The position numbers and the translations under genes were made by a program. 64,000 nt of DNA from contig PMUI01000058.1 in the NCBI GenBank assembly GCA_003166955.1, forward strand, positions 1 through 64,000, read 5' to 3'. Under the pieces are notes generated by a model that searched no databases, had not been told where the DNA came from, and saw nothing but the letters and a program-made list of their open reading frames with translations. This stretch comes from Acidobacterium sp. GTDB lineage: Bacteria; Acidobacteriota; Terriglobia; Terriglobales; Acidobacteriaceae. Below are positions 16,422-26,418 of this stretch, in pieces (the stretch's first letter is position 1; every line of letters begins with the position of its first letter).

Positions 16422-17273
16422 TCAGTAGCCGCGAGCATGAAGAGCGAAAACCACGATCGAGGCAATGATGCAATAGATGCCGAAGTAGAACCAGCGCCCC
16501 TTCTCCAGCCACGCGCTCAGCCACTTCAGCGCCACCAGTCCGGCGAGAAACGCGAAGACCATCCCCAGCAGGCTCGGGAGCGCGGCCTGCGCGAATCCGC
16601 TCGTGTCAGCGTGGTGCAGGCGCAGCGCCTCGCGGCCGATCGCCAGCGGCGTGATGATCACCGCCAGCGCAAAGCTGAACGACTCCGCGCGCACCTTCTT
16701 GATGCCCTGCAAAATGCCGACGGAAATCGTGGCGCCGGAACGAGAGAATCCACGAAAAGGAAGACACAGCCCCTGCACCGCGCCGATGATGCCCGCCTGG
16801 CCGAAGCCGATCTGGTCCGATTCAGCAGAGTCCGGTCGCCGCCCTTCCTTCAGCCCCGCCACCAAAATTAAAATTCCCGCAGCCAGCAGTGCCGGGGCCA
16901 CAATTTCGAGATGGCTGAAGAGGTCTTCGATCTGCGCTTTGGGCGCGTGCCGGAACAGCGTGTGCTCGATCACCTTAATGACCGCCTCGCCCACAACCGC
17001 CGTGAAGAAGGTCGCGATCACCGCCAGCCACACGAAGCGCTTTTTCGCCTCGGGCTCCGCGAAGTACGTCTCCTTCCACTGTTTCCAGAAGTAGACGATG
17101 ACAGCGAACATCGTGCCCGTGTGCAGCATCACCAGCAGCAGGGTCATGGTTGGCGAAGAGGGGTCCATCCCCATCAGCTTTTCAGCAACCACCACGTGAG
17201 CCGAACTGGAAACCGGGAGCAGCTCGGCCAGGCCCTGAATGACGGCCAGCAGAATCACCTTGAGAAGCGACAT
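16422..17273 (-). CDS. uppP: Undecaprenyl-diphosphatase (UppP/BacA)
   Basis: 283 residues with about eight membrane helices. It recycles undecaprenyl pyrophosphate to the carrier lipid for peptidoglycan and O-antigen synthesis. Family motifs are present: QGLAELLPVSSSAH (about 14-27; the catalytic Glu and the Ser-rich loop) and PFRGFSRSGATI (about 170-181). Length is normal. It is read away from the pfp gene; the 189-bp gap between them must hold both promoters. Confidence 0.95.
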   Translation of the reverse strand: MSLLKVILLAVIQGLAELLPVSSSAHVVVAEKLMGMDPSSPTMTLLLVMLHTGTMFAVIVYFWKQWKETYFAEPEAKKRFVWLAVIATFFTAVVGEAVIKVIEHTLFRHAPKAQIEDLFSHLEIVAPALLAAGILILVAGLKEGRRPDSAESDQIGFGQAGIIGAVQGLCLPFRGFSRSGATISVGILQGIKKVRAESFSFALAVIITPLAIGREALRLHHADTSGFAQAALPSLLGMVFAFLAGLVALKWLSAWLEKGRWFYFGIYCIIASIVVFALHARGY

Positions 17274-19371: not shown

Positions 19372-20127
19372 TCAGACTGCCACAGGCTTCCTGCGCGCCT
19401 TCTTCGTCGCCTGCCCATTTTCCGGCGGCGGCGGAGGACCCCCGGAAATCTCCAGATCCTGCGCTGACTGGGCCGCGGTCAGGTGCCGCTCCATCACCGC
19501 GCGCGCCTCCCTGGAATTCCGCGACCGGATCGCCCGATAGATTTCCCGGTGCAAATCCGCGGACTCCTTCAAGTCCCGCGAGCGCTCCGCCGTCTTGCGC
19601 CGCTCATCGTAGAGGGCCGACGTGATGGTCTCCATCAGCGCCGCGAGGATCGGGTTCCCCGAGGCCTGCGCGATCACGCGATGAAAGCGCACATCGTGGA
19701 TCAGGTACTCGATGGGGTCGTTGACCGTCGCATACATCTCCGCGATCTCTTCCGACATTGCCGAAATGTGCTGCTCGCGCCCGCGCTCGGCCGCCAGCGC
19801 CGCCAATTCGCTTTCGAGGATGCGCCGAGCCTCAAACATCTGCCATGATTGAAATCCATGCAGCGCGCCCAGCAAACTCAGCGACGACTTGCCCAGCTCC
19901 GGCGGCCCGTCGGCCACAAACGTGCCCACGCCGTGGCGCACATCCATCACGCCCATCGCCGCCAGATACCCAATCCCAGTCCGCAGGCTCGCGCGGCTGA
20001 TCCTCAACCGCCGCGCAAACTCCCGCTCCGGCGGAATTCGGTCGCCAGGCTGCAGGTCTCCGGTTTCGATGAGGGTCCGGATGTGGTTGACCACCCGCAT
20101 CGTCATGTGTGTATCGGATTTTGCCAT
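19372..20127 (-). CDS. FadR-family GntR regulator of the hexuronate operon
   Basis: 251 residues from MAKSDTHMT; the frame is open further upstream but without a plausible start. Residues ~5-75 are a GntR winged helix (LIETGDLQPGDRIPPEREFARRL, LRISRASLR), followed by an all-helical FCD ligand-binding domain (about 95-225) with conserved metal/ligand residues in the pattern D-x3-H (HDVRFHRVIA) and DLHREIYRAI, and a basic C-terminal tail. It is divergent from uxaC by 190 bp. It probably represses the operon until a hexuronate or its ketose form binds, by analogy with UxuR/ExuR. Confidence 0.85.
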   Translation of the reverse strand: MAKSDTHMTMRVVNHIRTLIETGDLQPGDRIPPEREFARRLRISRASLRTGIGYLAAMGVMDVRHGVGTFVADGPPELGKSSLSLLGALHGFQSWQMFEARRILESELAALAAERGREQHISAMSEEIAEMYATVNDPIEYLIHDVRFHRVIAQASGNPILAALMETITSALYDERRKTAERSRDLKESADLHREIYRAIRSRNSREARAVMERHLTAAQSAQDLEISGGPPPPPENGQATKKARRKPVAV

Positions 20128-20225: not shown

Positions 20226-20269
20226 TTCCACTAATTTTCCCGCTTCTTGTATATTTTAGTGGTCGGACC
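20226..20269 (+). promoter_or_regulatory. Candidate uxaC promoter and GntR operator
   Basis: TATATT (20250-20255) could be a -10 box with a weak -35 TTCCAC (20226-20231). The near-palindrome GGTCGGACC (20261-20269) lies where transcription would start; the form GGTC-N-GACC suits FadR-type regulators. A strong ribosome site, GGAGGT (20301-20306), precedes the uxaC start. Based on sequence pattern only. Confidence 0.4.
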
Positions 20270-20317
20270 TCTGCAGCACAACCCCGCTGTTGGCGGTCCC
20301 GGAGGTCAACCAGGCCT

Positions 20318-21727
20318 ATGTCCACCGGCGCCATGACTCTGCTGAACGACGACCGTCTATTCCCCGCCGATCCCACCATGCGCAACATAGCGCGTCGACT
20401 GCACGCCGAAGTTCGCGACCTGCCCCTGATCAGTCCGCACGGACACACGCAGGCCGCCTGGTTCGCGTCCGACCAACCCTTTCCCGATCCGGCAAAGCTC
20501 TTCGTGCAGCCCGATCACTACATCTTCCGCATGCTTTACAGCCAGGGTATTGCGCTCGATGATCTGGAAATCGGCGTCGAGCATCTGAAGGATCCCCGCC
20601 GTGTCTGGCGCATCTTCGCCCAAAACTACTATCTGTTCCGCGGAACCCCGACCCGCATCTGGCTCGACTACGCCTTCCAGGAGCTCTTCGGACTCGAAGA
20701 GCGGCTCTCGGCCGCCACCGCGGACCTCTATTTCGATGTGATCTCCGAACGCCTGCAAACGCCGGAGTTCCGCCCTCGCGCCCTCTATGAGCGCTTCCGT
20801 CTCGAGGTCCTCGCCACCACCGACTCGCCCCTCGATTCGCTCGCCGCGCACCAGGCCATCCGCGACTCCGGATGGAAAGCGCGCATCATCCCCACCTTCC
20901 GCCCCGACTCGGTCGTCGATCCCGCCTTTGCCGGCTTTGCTGAGAACATCGCGAAGCTCGGCCAGCTCACCGGCGAAAACACAGAATTGTGGCAGGGCTA
21001 CATCCGCGCTCTGGAAAAAACGCGCGCCCGTTTCAAGGCTCTGGGCTGCACCTCCACCGATCACGGCCATCCCACCGCGCTCACCGCGGATCTGGCTCCC
21101 GCCGAGGCGGCGAAACTGTTCGAGGCGGTGCTGACGGACCGCGCCGATGCCCGCCAGCAGGAGCTGTTCCGCGCGCAAATGCTCACCGAAATGGCGCGTA
21201 TGAGCGTCGAAGACGGCCTCGTGATGCAGCTCCACCCCGGTGCCTTCCGCAATCACAACCGTAAACTCTACGAGCGCTATGGCCGCGACGTCGGGGCCGA
21301 CATCCCGGTCATCACGGACTACGTCCACGCGCTGCATCCGCTGTTGAACCGCTTCGGCAACGAGAAGAACTTCACGCTCATCCTCTTCACCCTCGACGAA
21401 ACCACCTACACGCGCGAGCTCGCCCCGCTGGCCGGGCACTATCCCTGCCTGCGCCTCGGCCCGCCCTGGTGGTTCCATGACAGCCCCGAGGGCATGCTCC
21501 GCTTCAGGGAACAGGTGACCGAGACGGCTGGCTTCTACAACACCGTCGGCTTCAACGACGACACGCGCGCCTTCCTCTCCATCCCGGCTCGCCACGACGT
21601 CGCTCGCCGCATCGACTGCGTCTGGCTGGCGCGCCTCGTCGCCGAACACCGCCTCTACGAAGACGAAGCCGTGGAGGTCGCGCGCGACCTCGCCTACAAC
21701 CTGGTCCGCAAAGCATATAAACTCTGA
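20318..21727 (+). CDS. uxaC: Uronate isomerase (glucuronate/galacturonate isomerase)
   Basis: 469 residues, normal length. It interconverts D-glucuronate and fructuronate, or D-galacturonate and tagaturonate, in the cytoplasm. The start at 20318 (MSTGAM) follows GGAGGT; another Met at 20333 is possible. It has an amidohydrolase-like barrel with an early H-G-H metal-binding pair (LISPHGHTQ, where many homologues have DYHCHL), WLDYAFQELFGL, the RPDSVVDP motif, QLHPGAFRNHN and WWFHDSP near the end. First gene of the operon; the transporter follows at 18 bp. Confidence 0.92.
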   Translation: MSTGAMTLLNDDRLFPADPTMRNIARRLHAEVRDLPLISPHGHTQAAWFASDQPFPDPAKLFVQPDHYIFRMLYSQGIALDDLEIGVEHLKDPRRVWRIFAQNYYLFRGTPTRIWLDYAFQELFGLEERLSAATADLYFDVISERLQTPEFRPRALYERFRLEVLATTDSPLDSLAAHQAIRDSGWKARIIPTFRPDSVVDPAFAGFAENIAKLGQLTGENTELWQGYIRALEKTRARFKALGCTSTDHGHPTALTADLAPAEAAKLFEAVLTDRADARQQELFRAQMLTEMARMSVEDGLVMQLHPGAFRNHNRKLYERYGRDVGADIPVITDYVHALHPLLNRFGNEKNFTLILFTLDETTYTRELAPLAGHYPCLRLGPPWWFHDSPEGMLRFREQVTETAGFYNTVGFNDDTRAFLSIPARHDVARRIDCVWLARLVAEHRLYEDEAVEVARDLAYNLVRKAYKL

Positions 21728-21745: not shown

Positions 21746-23068
21746 ATGAAAAGTCCCGGCACTGCGACACAACAGGTGGAGAGCCCAGATACGAGTCCCG
21801 ACACCGGCGGCAAGTTCCGCCTCGGTCATGTGCGCTGGACCATCTGCGCCATGCTCTTCGCGGCGACCTCTATCAACTACATGGACCGCCAGGTCATCGC
21901 GATCCTCAAGCCGACGCTCCAGCACAGTATCGGCATGAACGAGGTCTCCTACGGGTACATCATCTTCGCCTTCCAGCTCGCCTACGCCGTGGGCGTGCTC
22001 GCGGCCGGCCGCATCATCGATAAGCTCGGCACCCGCATCGGCTATTGCATCTTCATGGGCCTCTGGAGTCTTTCGGCGATGGGCCACGCGCTCGCCAGTT
22101 CCGCGCTGGAGTTCGGCTTCGCGCGCTTCTTCCTAGGCCTCGGCGAATCCGGCAACTTTCCTGCCGCCATCAAGACGGTCGCCGAATGGTTCCCGCAGCG
22201 GGAGCGTTCGCTCGCCACCGGCATCTTCAATTCAGGCGCCAATGTGGGAGCCATCCTCGCGCCCCTCATCGTGCCCTGGATCGCGTTGCACTACAGCTGG
22301 CGCGCCGCGTTTCTGGTCACCGGCCTCTTCAGCCTGATGTGGATTTTCTGGTGGTATCGCAATTACCGCAAGCCCGCGGACCACCCCACGCTCACCGGTC
22401 GCGAGCTGCGCCATATCTATGAAGAAGCCGCCGCGCAACTCGGCCCCAACGTGCCGTGGCTGCGCCTGCTCAGCTACCGGCAGACCTGGGCCTTCGCCGC
22501 CGGAAAATTTCTCACCGACCCCATCTGGTGGTTCTTCCTCTTCTGGCTCCCGTCGTACTTCAGCGCAAGGTTCCACCTGAATCTTTCGCACCTCGGCTTG
22601 CCGCTCATCATCATCTACACCACCTCCTCGGTGGGCAGCATCGGCGGAGGCTATCTGCCAGTTCCGTTTCGTCGCCTGGGACTTTCAGCCTCCGGCGCCC
22701 GTCTCACCGCCATGCTGGTTTGCGCCTGCGCCATCGTCCCCATCTTCATCGCCGGAAATCTGAACTCGGAATGGGCCGCCATCGGTCTTCTCAGCCTGGC
22801 CACCGCGGCGCACCAGGGCTGGTCGGCGAATCTCTTCACCACCACCTCCGACATGTTCCCCAAGAGCGCCGTCGGCTCCGTCGTCGGCATCGGCACCTGT
22901 GCCGGTTCGTTCGGCGGCATGATCCTGGCCGCCAGCGCCGGTTGGATCCTGCAGATCACGCACAGCTACGTCAGCCTCTTCATCCTCGCCTCGAGCGTGT
23001 ACCTGGTTGCGCTGCTCCTCATCGTCCTGCTCGCCCCAGGACTGAAGAAAGTCGAGCTGGCCGCATGA
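21746..23068 (+). CDS. MFS transporter, ExuT-like hexuronate importer (ACS family)
   Basis: 440 residues, twelve membrane helices. Family motifs: INYMDRQVIAIL in helix 1, the loop GRIIDKLGTRIGY and RFFLGLGESGNFPAAIKTV. These identify the anion:cation symporter branch that contains ExuT (hexuronate/H+ symport). The location between uronate isomerase and UxaE supports glucuronate or galacturonate as substrate. Its stop overlaps the start of the next gene (ATGA). Confidence 0.85.
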   Translation: MKSPGTATQQVESPDTSPDTGGKFRLGHVRWTICAMLFAATSINYMDRQVIAILKPTLQHSIGMNEVSYGYIIFAFQLAYAVGVLAAGRIIDKLGTRIGYCIFMGLWSLSAMGHALASSALEFGFARFFLGLGESGNFPAAIKTVAEWFPQRERSLATGIFNSGANVGAILAPLIVPWIALHYSWRAAFLVTGLFSLMWIFWWYRNYRKPADHPTLTGRELRHIYEEAAAQLGPNVPWLRLLSYRQTWAFAAGKFLTDPIWWFFLFWLPSYFSARFHLNLSHLGLPLIIIYTTSSVGSIGGGYLPVPFRRLGLSASGARLTAMLVCACAIVPIFIAGNLNSEWAAIGLLSLATAAHQGWSANLFTTTSDMFPKSAVGSVVGIGTCAGSFGGMILAASAGWILQITHSYVSLFILASSVYLVALLLIVLLAPGLKKVELAA

Positions 23069-24339
23069 GCCTCTATCTCGCCCACGGTGGCGCGCAGATG
23101 GAAATCTCCTGCTCCGAGCTGCAGTCTCTGCTCGGCCACGCGCTCGACAAGCTCGGCCCGCGCCGCCGCGTGCTCGTCATCCCGCCGGATATCACCCGCC
23201 TGCATTCGCGCGCCGGCGAGCTCACCCGCTTCGCCTGGGAATACTACGGCGAACGCCTGGCCGCCGTCCTGCCCGCGCTGGGCACGCACGCTCCGATGTC
23301 CGCCGATCAGCTCACGCGCATGTTCGGCGATGTGCCACAGTCGCTGTTTCATATTCACAACTGGCGCACCGACATCGAAACCATCGGCGAAGTCCCGTCG
23401 TCCTTCATCTGCGAACAATCCGAAGGCAAGCTCAACTTCTCCTGGCCTGCTCAGGTCAACCGCTTGCTGCTCGAGGGTGACTTCGACCTCATCCTGTCCG
23501 TCGGCCAGGTCGTCCCGCACGAAGTCATCGGCATGGCGAATTACAACAAGAACGTCCTCGTCGGCTCCGGCGGCCGCGAAGGCATCAACCGCAGCCACTA
23601 TCTCGGTGCGGTCTACGGCATGGAGCGCATCATGGGACGCGCCGACAACCCCGTGCGCCGCGTTCTCAACTACGCTTCCGACCGCTTCCTCAAACACCTG
23701 CCCATCGTCTACGTGCAGACCGTCGTGGGCCGCGCTCCCGACGGAGGCCTCGCCACTCGCGGCGTCTTCATCGGCGATGACGTCGAGTGCTTCCTGCGTG
23801 CCTCCGAGCTCAGCCTCAAAGTCAACTTCGAAATGCTCGACCAGCCGCTGCGCAAGGCCGTTGTCTACCTTGACCCGCATGAGTTCCACAGCACCTGGCT
23901 CGGCAACAAGGCCGTCTACCGCACCCGCATGGCGCTGGCCGACGGAGCCGACCTCATCATCCTCGCACCCGCCGTGAAGGAATTCGGCGAGGACCGCACC
24001 ATCGACGCGCTCATCCGTAAATATGGATACCGCGGCACCCCCGCAACCCTCGACGCCGTCGCGAAGAACCCCGACCTGGCCGCCGACCTGAGCGCCGCCG
24101 CGCACCTCATCCACGGCTCGTCGGAAGGCCGCTTCACCATCACCTGGTGCCCGGGTCATCTCACCCGGGAAGAGGTGGAGGGCGCCGGTTTCGCCTATAG
24201 CGACCTGCCCGAGATGCTCCGCCGCTACGATCCCGCAAAGCTCGCGCACGGCTTCAACACCGTCGACGGCGAGGAGGTTTTCTTCGTCGCGAACCCTGGG
24301 CTCGGTCTCTGGGCCCATCGCGACCGCTTCATCAACTGA
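23065..24339 (+). CDS. LarA-superfamily nickel-pincer racemase/epimerase, candidate sugar-acid 2-epimerase
   Basis: 424 residues starting MSLYLAHGG; the start overlaps the transporter stop by 4 bp (ATGA). It belongs to the DUF2088/lactate racemase family. Residues corresponding to the Lactobacillus LarA site are in place with matching spacing: R45 in PPDITR (LarA R75), H75 in GTHAPM (H108), H152 in VVPHEVIG (H174), K162 (K184; the pincer-cofactor lysine, +10) and H178 in NRSHYLG (H200; nickel ligand, +26). The family includes enzymes acting on lactate, malate and gluconate. In an operon that should make mannonate, a mannonate/gluconate 2-epimerase role is plausible (inference). No larB, larC or larE gene for the cofactor is in this window. 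The overall sequence is divergent from lactate racemases, so lactate is unlikely to be the substrate. Confidence 0.82.
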   Translation: MSLYLAHGGAQMEISCSELQSLLGHALDKLGPRRRVLVIPPDITRLHSRAGELTRFAWEYYGERLAAVLPALGTHAPMSADQLTRMFGDVPQSLFHIHNWRTDIETIGEVPSSFICEQSEGKLNFSWPAQVNRLLLEGDFDLILSVGQVVPHEVIGMANYNKNVLVGSGGREGINRSHYLGAVYGMERIMGRADNPVRRVLNYASDRFLKHLPIVYVQTVVGRAPDGGLATRGVFIGDDVECFLRASELSLKVNFEMLDQPLRKAVVYLDPHEFHSTWLGNKAVYRTRMALADGADLIILAPAVKEFGEDRTIDALIRKYGYRGTPATLDAVAKNPDLAADLSAAAHLIHGSSEGRFTITWCPGHLTREEVEGAGFAYSDLPEMLRRYDPAKLAHGFNTVDGEEVFFVANPGLGLWAHRDRFIN

Positions 24340-24346
24340 GGTGAGT

Positions 24347-25645
24347 ATGACTACGCACACACTCGAACTCGGCAAATTCTCCATCGGAGTGGGCGATCGC
24401 TTCGCGCATCAGGCCAAGGCCCAGCTCCAGGCCTGCATCGAAGCCGCGCACGCAGGCGTCGAAATCATTCCCGTCTGGAACAAATCGAACCGCGAGCACA
24501 ACATCATCGGCTCCGAGCCGTCTTCAACGCGCGCCGCTGCCGACGCAGCCGTGAAAGCGCTGCATTGGAACAAGCCACACTTCTGCGACGCGGACCACAT
24601 CAACCTCACTACGGTCGACCGCTTCCTCGCCCCCTGCGACTTCTACACCATCGACGTCGCGGATTACATCGGCAAGCCCGCCGATCCCGCCACCATCGAG
24701 AAATTCCTGAAACACCGCTCCGACCTTACTGGCACGCTCCGTCTCGAAGGCGTGCGCGAACCGCTCGAGATCACGCCTCATCTGCTGCGCGCCACCGCCA
24801 CCAAGTTCCTTTTCGCCGTGCAGGAAGCCGGCAAAGTCTATCGCCACATCGAAGCCGCCAAAGGGAAGGGAGGTTTCATCGCCGAAGTTTCCATGGACGA
24901 GACCGATGCCGCGCAAACGCCCGCTGAGTTGCTCATCATCCTCGCCGCCATCGCCGACGAAGGCATTCCGGTGCAGACCATCGCGCCGAAATTCACCGGC
25001 CGCTTCAACAAAGGCGTCGACTACGTTGGCAACGTCGATCAGTTCCGCCGCGAAATTATCCTAGACGTCGCCGCCATCGCGTGGGCCACGGCCAATCTCG
25101 GCCTGCCGAAAAATCTCAAGCTCAGCATTCACTCCGGCAGCGACAAGTTCTCCATCTACTCCGCCATCTACGAAGCTACCAAGCACTCCGGCGTCCACCT
25201 TAAGACCGCCGGAACCACCTGGCTAGAAGAAATCATCGGCCTCGCCGAAGCCGGCGGCGATGGCCTTGCCCTGGCGAAGGAGATCTACGCCGAGGCATGG
25301 GCGCATCGCGAAGAACTCTGCGCGCCGTATGCCACGGTGATCGACATCGGCCCCGCGAAACTCCCCGTGCCCGCCACCGTCGCCAAATGGACCTCGCAGC
25401 AATACACCTCCGCCCTGCGCCACGACCCGCATTCCCCCGCGTATAACTCGAGCCTGCGCCAGCTCCTCCACGTAGGCTTCAAGGTCGCCGCCAAAATGGG
25501 CGACAAATACATCCGCCTTCTGGAGACCAACGAGAAAGTGATCGCGAAAAACGTCACCGAGAACCTCTACGCCCGCCACATCGGCCCCGTCTTCCTCGGC
25601 CAGCCGTCGCCCGTCGCCGCACTCGCCCACGCGGAGGCGAAATGA
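24347..25645 (+). CDS. uxaE: Tagaturonate/fructuronate epimerase UxaE
   Basis: About 432 residues from ATG 24347 (GAGGTG just upstream; GTG at 24341 is possible). UxaE epimerises tagaturonate to fructuronate, merging the galacturonate branch with the glucuronate branch. Recognised from family sequence: GVGDRFAHQAKAQL, PVWNKSNREHNIIG, DADHINL, APKFTGRFNKGVDYVG, LSIHSGSDKFSIY and HLKTAGTTWLEE. His and Asp residues in DADH and HSGSDKF are probable metal or catalytic positions. It starts 7 bp after the LarA-like gene and its stop overlaps the SDR start. Confidence 0.88.
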   Translation: MTTHTLELGKFSIGVGDRFAHQAKAQLQACIEAAHAGVEIIPVWNKSNREHNIIGSEPSSTRAAADAAVKALHWNKPHFCDADHINLTTVDRFLAPCDFYTIDVADYIGKPADPATIEKFLKHRSDLTGTLRLEGVREPLEITPHLLRATATKFLFAVQEAGKVYRHIEAAKGKGGFIAEVSMDETDAAQTPAELLIILAAIADEGIPVQTIAPKFTGRFNKGVDYVGNVDQFRREIILDVAAIAWATANLGLPKNLKLSIHSGSDKFSIYSAIYEATKHSGVHLKTAGTTWLEEIIGLAEAGGDGLALAKEIYAEAWAHREELCAPYATVIDIGPAKLPVPATVAKWTSQQYTSALRHDPHSPAYNSSLRQLLHVGFKVAAKMGDKYIRLLETNEKVIAKNVTENLYARHIGPVFLGQPSPVAALAHAEAK

Positions 25646-26418
25646 GCCTCCCCTCGCTGCAGCTCAACGGCAAAACCGCAGTCGTTGTCGGCGGAACCTC
25701 CGGCATCGGCCGCGCCATCTCGCTCGGCCTCGCCGAAGCGGGCGCCGACGTCGTCGCCTCCGCGCGCCGCCAGGAACAAGTCGACCAGACCGCCGCCGAA
25801 ATCGAATCCCGCGGACGCAAAACCCTGCGCCTCACCTGCGACATGCAGGATCGCGCCTCCCTCCAGCGCCTCCTCGATGAAACCCTCTCCGCATTTGGCA
25901 AGGTCGACATCCTCGTCAACAGCGCCGGCAAAATCAAACGCGCCCCCACGCTCACTTTTCCTGAAGACGAGTGGCGCGACATCATCGACACTAACCTCAC
26001 CGGCACGCTGCGCGCCTGCCAGATCTTCGGCACACACATGCTCGACCGCAGCTACGGCCGCATCATTAACATCGCCTCGCTGAACTCCTTCGTCGCCCTC
26101 AGCGAAGTCGCCGCCTACGCCGCCAGCAAAGCCGCCGTCGCCTCGCTCACGCGTTCGCTCGCCGTCGAGTGGTCGAAGAAAGGCGTGCTCGTCAACGCCA
26201 TCGCTCCCGGCGTCTTCCGCACCGCACTCAACGCCGACCTCCTCGACAACACCCCGCGCGGCAAAGAACTCCAGATGCGCACCCCCATGAACCGCTTCGG
26301 CAAAACCGAAGAAGTCGTCGGAGCCGCCATCTTCCTCGCCTCCGACGCGGCCTCCTTCGTCACGGGTCAGGTCCTCGTCATCGACGGAGGCTTTTTGGCC
26401 AGCGGTGTCAATCAGTAG
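25642..26418 (+). CDS. Short-chain dehydrogenase, probable fructuronate (keto-uronate) reductase
   Basis: 258 residues. Rossmann start GGTSGIG (17-23), NSAG (93-96) and the catalytic triad S146-Y159-K163 with YAASK are intact; it resembles KduD or gluconate 5-dehydrogenase-type classical SDRs. Start overlaps the uxaE stop (ATGA). The context suggests reduction of fructuronate to mannonate with NAD(P)H, in place of the usual UxuB, which is a different family. An alternative is oxidation of a sugar acid. Last gene of the operon. Confidence 0.8.
   Translation: MSLPSLQLNGKTAVVVGGTSGIGRAISLGLAEAGADVVASARRQEQVDQTAAEIESRGRKTLRLTCDMQDRASLQRLLDETLSAFGKVDILVNSAGKIKRAPTLTFPEDEWRDIIDTNLTGTLRACQIFGTHMLDRSYGRIINIASLNSFVALSEVAAYAASKAAVASLTRSLAVEWSKKGVLVNAIAPGVFRTALNADLLDNTPRGKELQMRTPMNRFGKTEEVVGAAIFLASDAASFVTGQVLVIDGGFLASGVNQ

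Follow-up and report, generated by a model that had tools for sequence, protein, structure and literature searches.

A group 18 LarA homologue in an acidobacterial hexuronate operon and a candidate PfkB-family gluconokinase that alternates with GntK

The epimerisation of mannonate to gluconate was proposed from gene context by Rodionova et al. in 2012 for Thermotoga maritima, and gntE homologues were seen in Acidobacterium and Terriglobus in the same work, both as related in PMC6978723. GntE2 of T. maritima was assayed in 2020 as a D-gluconate 2-epimerase (structure 4NAR; PMC7583248), a eukaryotic GntE was added by PMC11770544, and the UxaR regulon of T. maritima contains gnd, uxaE, uxaD, gntE, and gntK (PMC3750489). 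Among the LarA homologues (LarAH), groups 18, 19, and 20 are treated together, and a hexonate substrate is merely hypothesised for group 18 (PMC7583248). Here we describe a group 18 protein encoded at 23065–24339 on the forward strand of a 64,000-nucleotide stretch of an Acidobacterium sp. genome (GCA_003166955.1, contig PMUI01000058.1, positions 1 to 64,000; hereafter the window).

We consider that this protein, with a probability of roughly 0.7, acts in a hexuronate route as a C2-epimerase dependent on the nickel-pincer nucleotide (NPN) cofactor, most likely on mannonate/gluconate. A first reading of the window from its letters (the sequence-only reading) had presented a uronate-to-gluconate route as non-canonical; since the proposal of 2012 and the assay of GntE2 were already in print, the pathway is a recurrence of a published proposal. 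The LarA protein is likewise of a known kind. What is new is an exchange between GntK and PfkB kinases and an upstream dyad shared by the genes concerned, which together offer a candidate new family of gluconokinases that is open to test; neither the exchange nor the dyad was found in the accessible portions of the open-access literature searched.

The open reading frame (ORF) at 23065–24339 is intact and open over 424 aa. Its product matches NF052594 over nearly the full length with 645.3 bits (E 3e-194; equivalog cut-off 500), so that a chance match is no concern, and its Lar_N domain (PF09861) scores 35.6 bits against a Pfam cut-off of 23.3. It is a member of a known, named group, the "nickel-dependent putative hexonate epimerase" of NCBIfam, in agreement with the hexonate epimerase idea of the sequence-only reading. 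No difference from this family was found; its substrate is named merely as a putative hexonate, and the neighbourhoods described below narrow it to mannonate/gluconate. The NPN-binding and catalytic residues are all present: D42, R45, H75, H152, K162 (+10 from H152), H178 (+26), and the catalytic lysine K282. They align with D72/R75/H108/H174/K184/H200/K298 of LarA and, for the corresponding positions, with R41/K164/H180 of GntE2 (reference positions from PMC7583248), and they are invariant in an alignment with 19 relatives, which include Acidobacteria, Bacteroidales, Planctomycetes, Ignavibacteriales, and Calditrichia records. D42 to H178 thus stand where the sequence-only reading had placed them; the exact spacing that it claimed holds for the H152/K162/H178 block, whereas R45 and H75 are 30 residues apart instead of the 33 in LarA. 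The loop E153-V154 and W278 match two of the three positions in the signature described for groups 18–20, which consists of E-V/S in the loop, W in alpha-11, and A/V in alpha-14 (PMC7583248).

An AlphaFold2 model (mean pLDDT 88.9) found GntE2 as its best fold match (4nar, TM 0.81), and all 19 PDB matches with E <= 0.001 are LarA-family structures. 4nar is also the closest solved sequence. The likeness to GntE2 extends over the fold, the NPN-binding and catalytic residues, and the hexuronate gene context; the difference lies in an identity of 25% in the structural alignment, in the group, and in the kinase partner. Membership in group 20, the GntE2 clade, was considered and rejected, because the protein passes the group 18 model and shares this low identity with 4nar.

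The gene lies in the order gntR (divergent)–uxaC–MFS–larA–uxaE–SDR, where MFS denotes a major facilitator superfamily transporter and SDR a short-chain dehydrogenase/reductase. The regulator (19375–20127, reverse strand; PF00392 and PF07729 over cut-off) is of the GntR/FCD family and is likely a hexuronate-responsive repressor with a UxaR-like role. The other genes are on the forward strand. uxaC (20333–21727) encodes a glucuronate/galacturonate isomerase (NF002794, 573.9 bits, cut-off 387; PF02614), and the MFS protein (21746–23068; PF07690 over cut-off, best NCBIfam match TIGR00893 with 237 bits, under its cut-off of 395) is a probable hexuronate uptake system. Its stop codon overlaps the larA ATG as ATGA at 23065–23068. 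Downstream, uxaE (24341–25645; start at ATG 24350 or GTG 24341) encodes a tagaturonate/fructuronate epimerase (PF16257, 157.7 bits, cut-off 27.1) whose closest solved chain is 6ilb, UxaE of Cohnella laeviribosi (E 1.3e-24). The SDR gene (25642–26418) encodes a probable mannonate-forming fructuronate reductase, with 1vl8 as the second-best PDB match. Both the ATGA overlap and the position of larA between uxaC and uxaE, as given by the sequence-only reading, were confirmed, the latter with family models over cut-off. Compared with the T. maritima UxaR regulon, UxaE, an SDR, a LarA-type epimerase, Gnd, and a GntR-family regulator are shared; the differences are that the window has uxaC within the operon, that T. 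maritima has UxuA (PMC3750489) whereas UxuA was not found in the window genome, and that GntK was not found either, a PfkB kinase seeming to be its substitute.

We infer the following substrates and the following order of epimerase and kinase. UxaC would yield tagaturonate and fructuronate, UxaE would convert tagaturonate to fructuronate, and the SDR would reduce fructuronate to mannonate. LarA would then interconvert D-mannonate and D-gluconate by a proton-coupled hydride transfer between C2-H and the nickel-pincer cofactor, with H75 and H152 as the presumed acid/base pair and R45, K162, and H178 expected to hold the cofactor. A PfkB kinase encoded elsewhere would phosphorylate gluconate to 6-phosphogluconate, from which Gnd would produce ribulose-5-phosphate and NADPH. 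We regard the route with the PfkB step as somewhat less secure than the epimerase assignment, its chances being modestly better than even. The alternatives weighed below overlap in part with this route, and the confidence placed in the several readings does not sum to 1.

The genome that contains the window (99.4% complete) carries larB, larC, and larE together on a single contig, all three scoring above their cut-offs (NF033503, 284.7/175 bits; TIGR00299, 207.4/90; TIGR00268, 308.5/150), in favour of the sequence-only reading, which had made its assignment depend on these genes. Among 200 sampled genomes of the order, 132 exceed the NF052594 cut-off and 145 have any match. Setting apart 25 of the 132 that score below 610 bits leaves 107 genomes with close LarA orthologues (>=610 bits); LarC was found in 106 of these 107, compared with 65 of the remaining 93.

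A second LarA subgroup, 43–47% identical to the window protein, retains all NPN residues and is directly followed by larE and larB (L121:6186-9314, L122:6145-9128, L123:5076-8232, and L126:6636-9572; LarE was assigned by NCBIfam in L121–L123 and LarB in L121–L122, the remainder by BLAST). The genomes of these four loci gave no match to LarC; of the 25 LarA-positive genomes scoring below 610 bits, 17 gave none. In this subgroup nickel may be inserted by another way, or may not be used at all. A more distant LarA (29% identical, under the group 18 cut-off) occurs with an SDR, Gnd, an MFS transporter, and the PfkB kinase treated below at L098:5756-10888, in a genome (G018) that likewise gave no LarC match.

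The gene neighbourhoods of LarA were compared at 81 loci, namely the window and 80 loci among 573 confirmed relatives, by mechanical clustering of ORFs. The counts are lower bounds, because many loci are cut by contig ends, and the SDR cluster may include other SDRs. Near LarA we found SDR in at least 47 loci, UxaC in at least 40, UxaE in at least 33, and PfkB kinases, MFS transporters, and 6-phosphogluconate dehydrogenase (Gnd) in at least 20 each; GntR regulators followed with at least 17, GH28 polygalacturonases with at least 13, GntK with at least 9, and KdgA with at least 8. The GntR/FCD cluster f7 accounts for 17 of the 80 relatives' loci, and the window regulator itself falls outside it. 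UxaC, UxaE, SDR, GntK, and Gnd adjoin LarA in several phyla. PfkB and Gnd occur together in 15 loci, and in none of the 81 does GntK accompany PfkB. The presence of Gnd and of the kinases beside LarA points to a route that ends in 6-phosphogluconate. The recurrence of the gene set, which the sequence-only reading had proposed to check, is borne out for SDR, UxaC, and UxaE, whereas its association with the lack of a mannonate dehydratase is not general, as described below. As a separate observation, LarA homologues in L026, L028, L042, L046, and L074 lie near Gfo/Idh/MocA oxidoreductases (f15), four of these five loci also contain xylose-isomerase-like TIM-barrel proteins (f14), and UxaC is found in L028, L042, and L046.

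The sequence-only reading had named GntK as the gluconokinase to look for. No match to the GntK/IdnK-type model (TIGR01313) was obtained in the window genome, in a search that scored 17 of the 37 candidates from a first look and did not extend to FGGY-type gluconokinases. A better candidate is a PfkB-family kinase at C116:53910-54983 (L087:9911-10993), which carries the same upstream dyad as the operon, and a full-length Gnd is encoded on contig C52 (TIGR00873, 776.7/426.7 bits). The PfkB clade recurs beside LarA and Gnd in relatives (a member is found, for example, at L036:10764-11843). When the 200 genomes were searched with an alignment of seven clade members (A1), the result split cleanly: 44 genomes scored above 600 bits, the kinase of the window genome with 709.7, and the next best of the 159 genomes with a match had 376 bits. 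Among the 132 LarA-positive genomes (over the NF052594 cut-off), taking as GntK-positive those over the TIGR01313 cut-off (119/135) and as PfkB-positive those above 600 bits, 88 have GntK only, 38 PfkB only, 2 both, and 4 neither. The two kinases divide even a single genus, g4, with 35 GntK, 5 PfkB, 2 both, and 0 neither. When the kinase label is mapped onto a LarA tree built from 53 of these genomes, it needs 9 changes, at least 3 of which are required by the branches with the best support.

The exchange is also seen at the same position of the operon. The order is UxaC–LarA–UxaE–GntK–SDR in L090 and UxaC–LarA–UxaE–PfkB–SDR in L089 and L096, each of the three loci having one extra ORF of another or unknown kind between UxaC and LarA. 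L100 shows LarA–UxaE–PfkB–SDR, with UxaC lacking in the stretch, and L095 has both kinases (UxaC–LarA–UxaE–PfkB–GntK–SDR). In Terracidiphilus gabretensis, a cultivated acidobacterium, a member of the PfkB clade shares a single 17-kb locus (L024) with UxaC, LarA, UxaE, and SDR. Within 6 kb of LarA, GntK is found in 45 of the 90 genomes with both genes and PfkB in 14 of 40. A PfkB type with a different N-terminus adjoins LarA and Gnd at L064:6863-7939, L052:6862-7938, and L073:9287-10357 (Bacteroidales, Planctomycetes); in L064 it coexists with a separate KdgK-like gene adjoining KdgA. This type may be another kinase of the same role.

A dyad, GTGGTCNGACCAC, was derived from the non-coding DNA upstream of uxaC in relatives (37 loci). 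It is present with at most one mismatch in 18 of the 37 upstreams if A/T is left free at positions 2 and 12, and in 16 strictly. In the window, the candidate operator GTGGTCGGACCTC at 20259–20271 has one mismatch to GTGGTCNGACCAC, and 61 bp separate its end from the uxaC start. A strict match, GTGGTCAGACCAC, is separated by 15 bp from the PfkB gene downstream of it in the window genome, and a degenerate match, GAGGTCCGACCTC, is located some 60 bp upstream of where gnd likely starts; none was found at the KdgK-like paralogue of this genome or at the gene for ManD, a mannonate dehydratase of the enolase superfamily. These sites at uxaC, PfkB, and gnd are the three matches to the degenerate dyad in 144,638 scanned bases of the genome, which include stretches picked for PfkB and gnd, against 0.125 expected from mononucleotide shuffles. 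In relatives, we compared all 25 standalone PfkB genes of LarA-positive genomes with the gnd, ManD, and KdgK-like genes of genera g1 and g2, leaving out two gnd upstreams (G159, at a contig end; G166, split). With at most one mismatch and A/T free, the dyad precedes 8 of 25 PfkB and 8 of 21 gnd genes, and 0 of 19 ManD and 0 of 29 KdgK-like genes (Fisher p 2e-6); strictly, with at most one mismatch, the pooled counts are 14/46 and 0/48 (p 1.4e-5), related upstreams not being independent in these tests. Shuffled upstreams reach one mismatch in about 1%. We infer that the dyad is read by the GntR/FCD protein; the operon, gnd, and the kinase gene are probably all under one such repressor, acting at the GWGGTCNGACCWC dyad. 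A different dyad, GTGGTTGACCAC, about 250 bp before uxaC, which looked conserved, was rejected as an operator, as these bases are VVNHI codons within the gene of the divergent regulator, and TGGTNNNNACCA has no match in the window.

Taken with the exchange, the dyad suggests that the PfkB clade is an unrecognised gluconokinase, or a mannonate 6-kinase, of the LarA-dependent route, which repeatedly replaces GntK under the regulator of uxaC and gnd, despite ManD; we hold this to be somewhat more probable than its negation. No gluconokinase of the PfkB family was found in the accessible parts of the open-access literature searched.

A number of observations weigh against the proposed route. Activity of a group 18 enzyme was not found in the available parts of PMC7583248 and PMC11770544. 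The SDR lies under every NCBIfam sugar-acid cut-off among the best 25 of 241 matches, scoring 250 of 338.85 bits for KduD and 228 of 281 for D-mannonate oxidoreductase. GntK and Gnd occur together in 0 of the 81 loci. The complementarity of GntK and PfkB has a Fisher p of 4e-26 in a test that ignores shared ancestry, and the relatives are not independent. In the window genome, PfkB and gnd are unlinked to the operon, being on other contigs. The freedom for A/T at positions 2 and 12 of the dyad was fixed after the gnd site of this genome had been seen, and strictly that site has two mismatches. Perfect strict dyads number 4/46 against 0/48 (p 0.054), a dyad with at most one mismatch is lacking in 17 of 25 PfkB and 13 of 21 gnd upstreams (30/46), and 3 of the 8 relatives' PfkB dyads are 350–500 bp away from the gene. 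Finally, 20 of the 81 LarA loci show none of SDR, UxaC, UxaE, PfkB, Gnd, and GntK. These loci outside such clusters are consistent with LarA acting on another hexonate or aldarate (altronate/allonate or glucarate/mannarate) as a side reaction, as is the very high KM of GntE1 (group 19) for mannonate; uronic or aldaric acids have been put forward for GntE1 by the authors of that work (PMC7583248). UxaE in the operon would, however, channel tagaturonate to fructuronate, and the recurring Gnd and GntK/PfkB neighbours indicate 6-phosphogluconate as the end product. We consider another substrate unlikely, and the least likely of the alternatives.

Three further points against the route concern 2-keto-3-deoxygluconate (KDG). 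The PfkB kinase is nearest by sequence and fold to KDG kinases (2afb, T. maritima TM0067, to which a representative of the candidate kinase is about 33% identical), so that a shift of substrate from KDG to gluconate would be required. ManD is encoded at C61:128429-129634, on another contig than the operon (NF043051, 706 bits, cut-off 550), and a pair of KdgK-like and KdgA-like genes is found on C138. Since ManD and this pair are present, mannonate could go to KDG instead. The sequence-only reading had noted the absence of UxuA from the cluster, and UxuA (PF03786) was not found in the window genome either; ManD is another mannonate dehydratase, and the idea that the genome has no mannonate dehydratase was rejected. 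Of the 3 PF00920 proteins of the genome, 0 exceed the Edd cut-off; they are IlvD, a member of the dihydroxy-acid dehydratase subfamily NF004784, and a YjhG/YagF xylonate dehydratase. In the 107 genomes with close LarA orthologues, ManD is found in 55, full-length UxuA in 22, either in 67, and neither in 40, of which 29 are also free of any UxuA-like match. Many PF03786 matches are partial, with about 120–130 bits, and not all were counted as UxuA; in the 200 genomes, near full-length matches over about 325 bits occur in 35 and any match in 69. A dehydratase is thus frequently present alongside LarA, as is the case for T. maritima, and since 67 of the 107 genomes have one, LarA instead of a dehydratase is no general rule.

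It is conceivable that LarA feeds a dehydratase, with ManD or a gluconate dehydratase leading to KDG and the PfkB protein serving as a second KDG kinase. The presence of ManD and a KdgA-like gene and the proximity of the kinase to KDG kinases favour this. Against it, a separate KdgK-like paralogue already stands beside the KdgA-like gene; the dyad occurs at the gnd of the window genome and of relatives and is lacking at ManD and KdgK-like genes; and PfkB occurs in alternation with GntK, certain operons having it at the position that GntK holds in others, and in part of the loci it is found near Gnd. The kinase also scores only 133 of the 440 bits required by the KDG-kinase equivalog model NF041332, a test that is weak, because the KdgK-like paralogue fails as well (151.6 of 440). 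A role as KDG kinase is possible and fits the gnd dyad and the GntK alternation less well; this reading seems improbable to us, a little more so than the kinase-first order considered next.

The gene content of the window genome fits a kinase-first order as well as the proposed epimerase-first order. PfkB or GntK would then phosphorylate mannonate, and group 18 LarA would epimerise 6-phosphomannonate to 6-phosphogluconate. Such an order has been reported for cell extracts of Lactobacillus suebicus, whose hybrid isomerase/phosphoketolase pathway likewise joins mannonate to 6-phosphogluconate: 6-phosphomannonate appeared, then 6-phosphogluconate, and a direct conversion of mannonate to gluconate was not seen (PMC6978723). 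The genes behind these activities were not identified there. Among the relatives of LarA, GntE2, LarAH15, and GntE1 were assayed and accept mannonate in its unphosphorylated form (PMC7583248, PMC11770544). We take the kinase-first order to be unlikely, if the strongest of the three alternatives, and retain epimerisation of free mannonate by LarA followed by phosphorylation.

Apart from the operon, an ORF at 16422–17273 on the reverse strand of the window encodes an undecaprenyl-diphosphatase-like membrane protein that falls under the cut-offs of all nine family models listed (best 144.8 of 260 bits).

The analysis gives LarAH group 18 a concrete candidate substrate where NCBIfam has only a "putative hexonate epimerase", and one prediction from it is a gluconokinase that belongs to the PfkB family. 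Many acidobacteria, these results suggest, use nickel chemistry to bring hexuronates from pectin into the pentose phosphate pathway, with NADPH and pentoses as the suggested outcome instead of pyruvate and glyceraldehyde-3-phosphate. If this is true, mannonate would enter the pentose phosphate pathway by nickel epimerisation although ManD is available.

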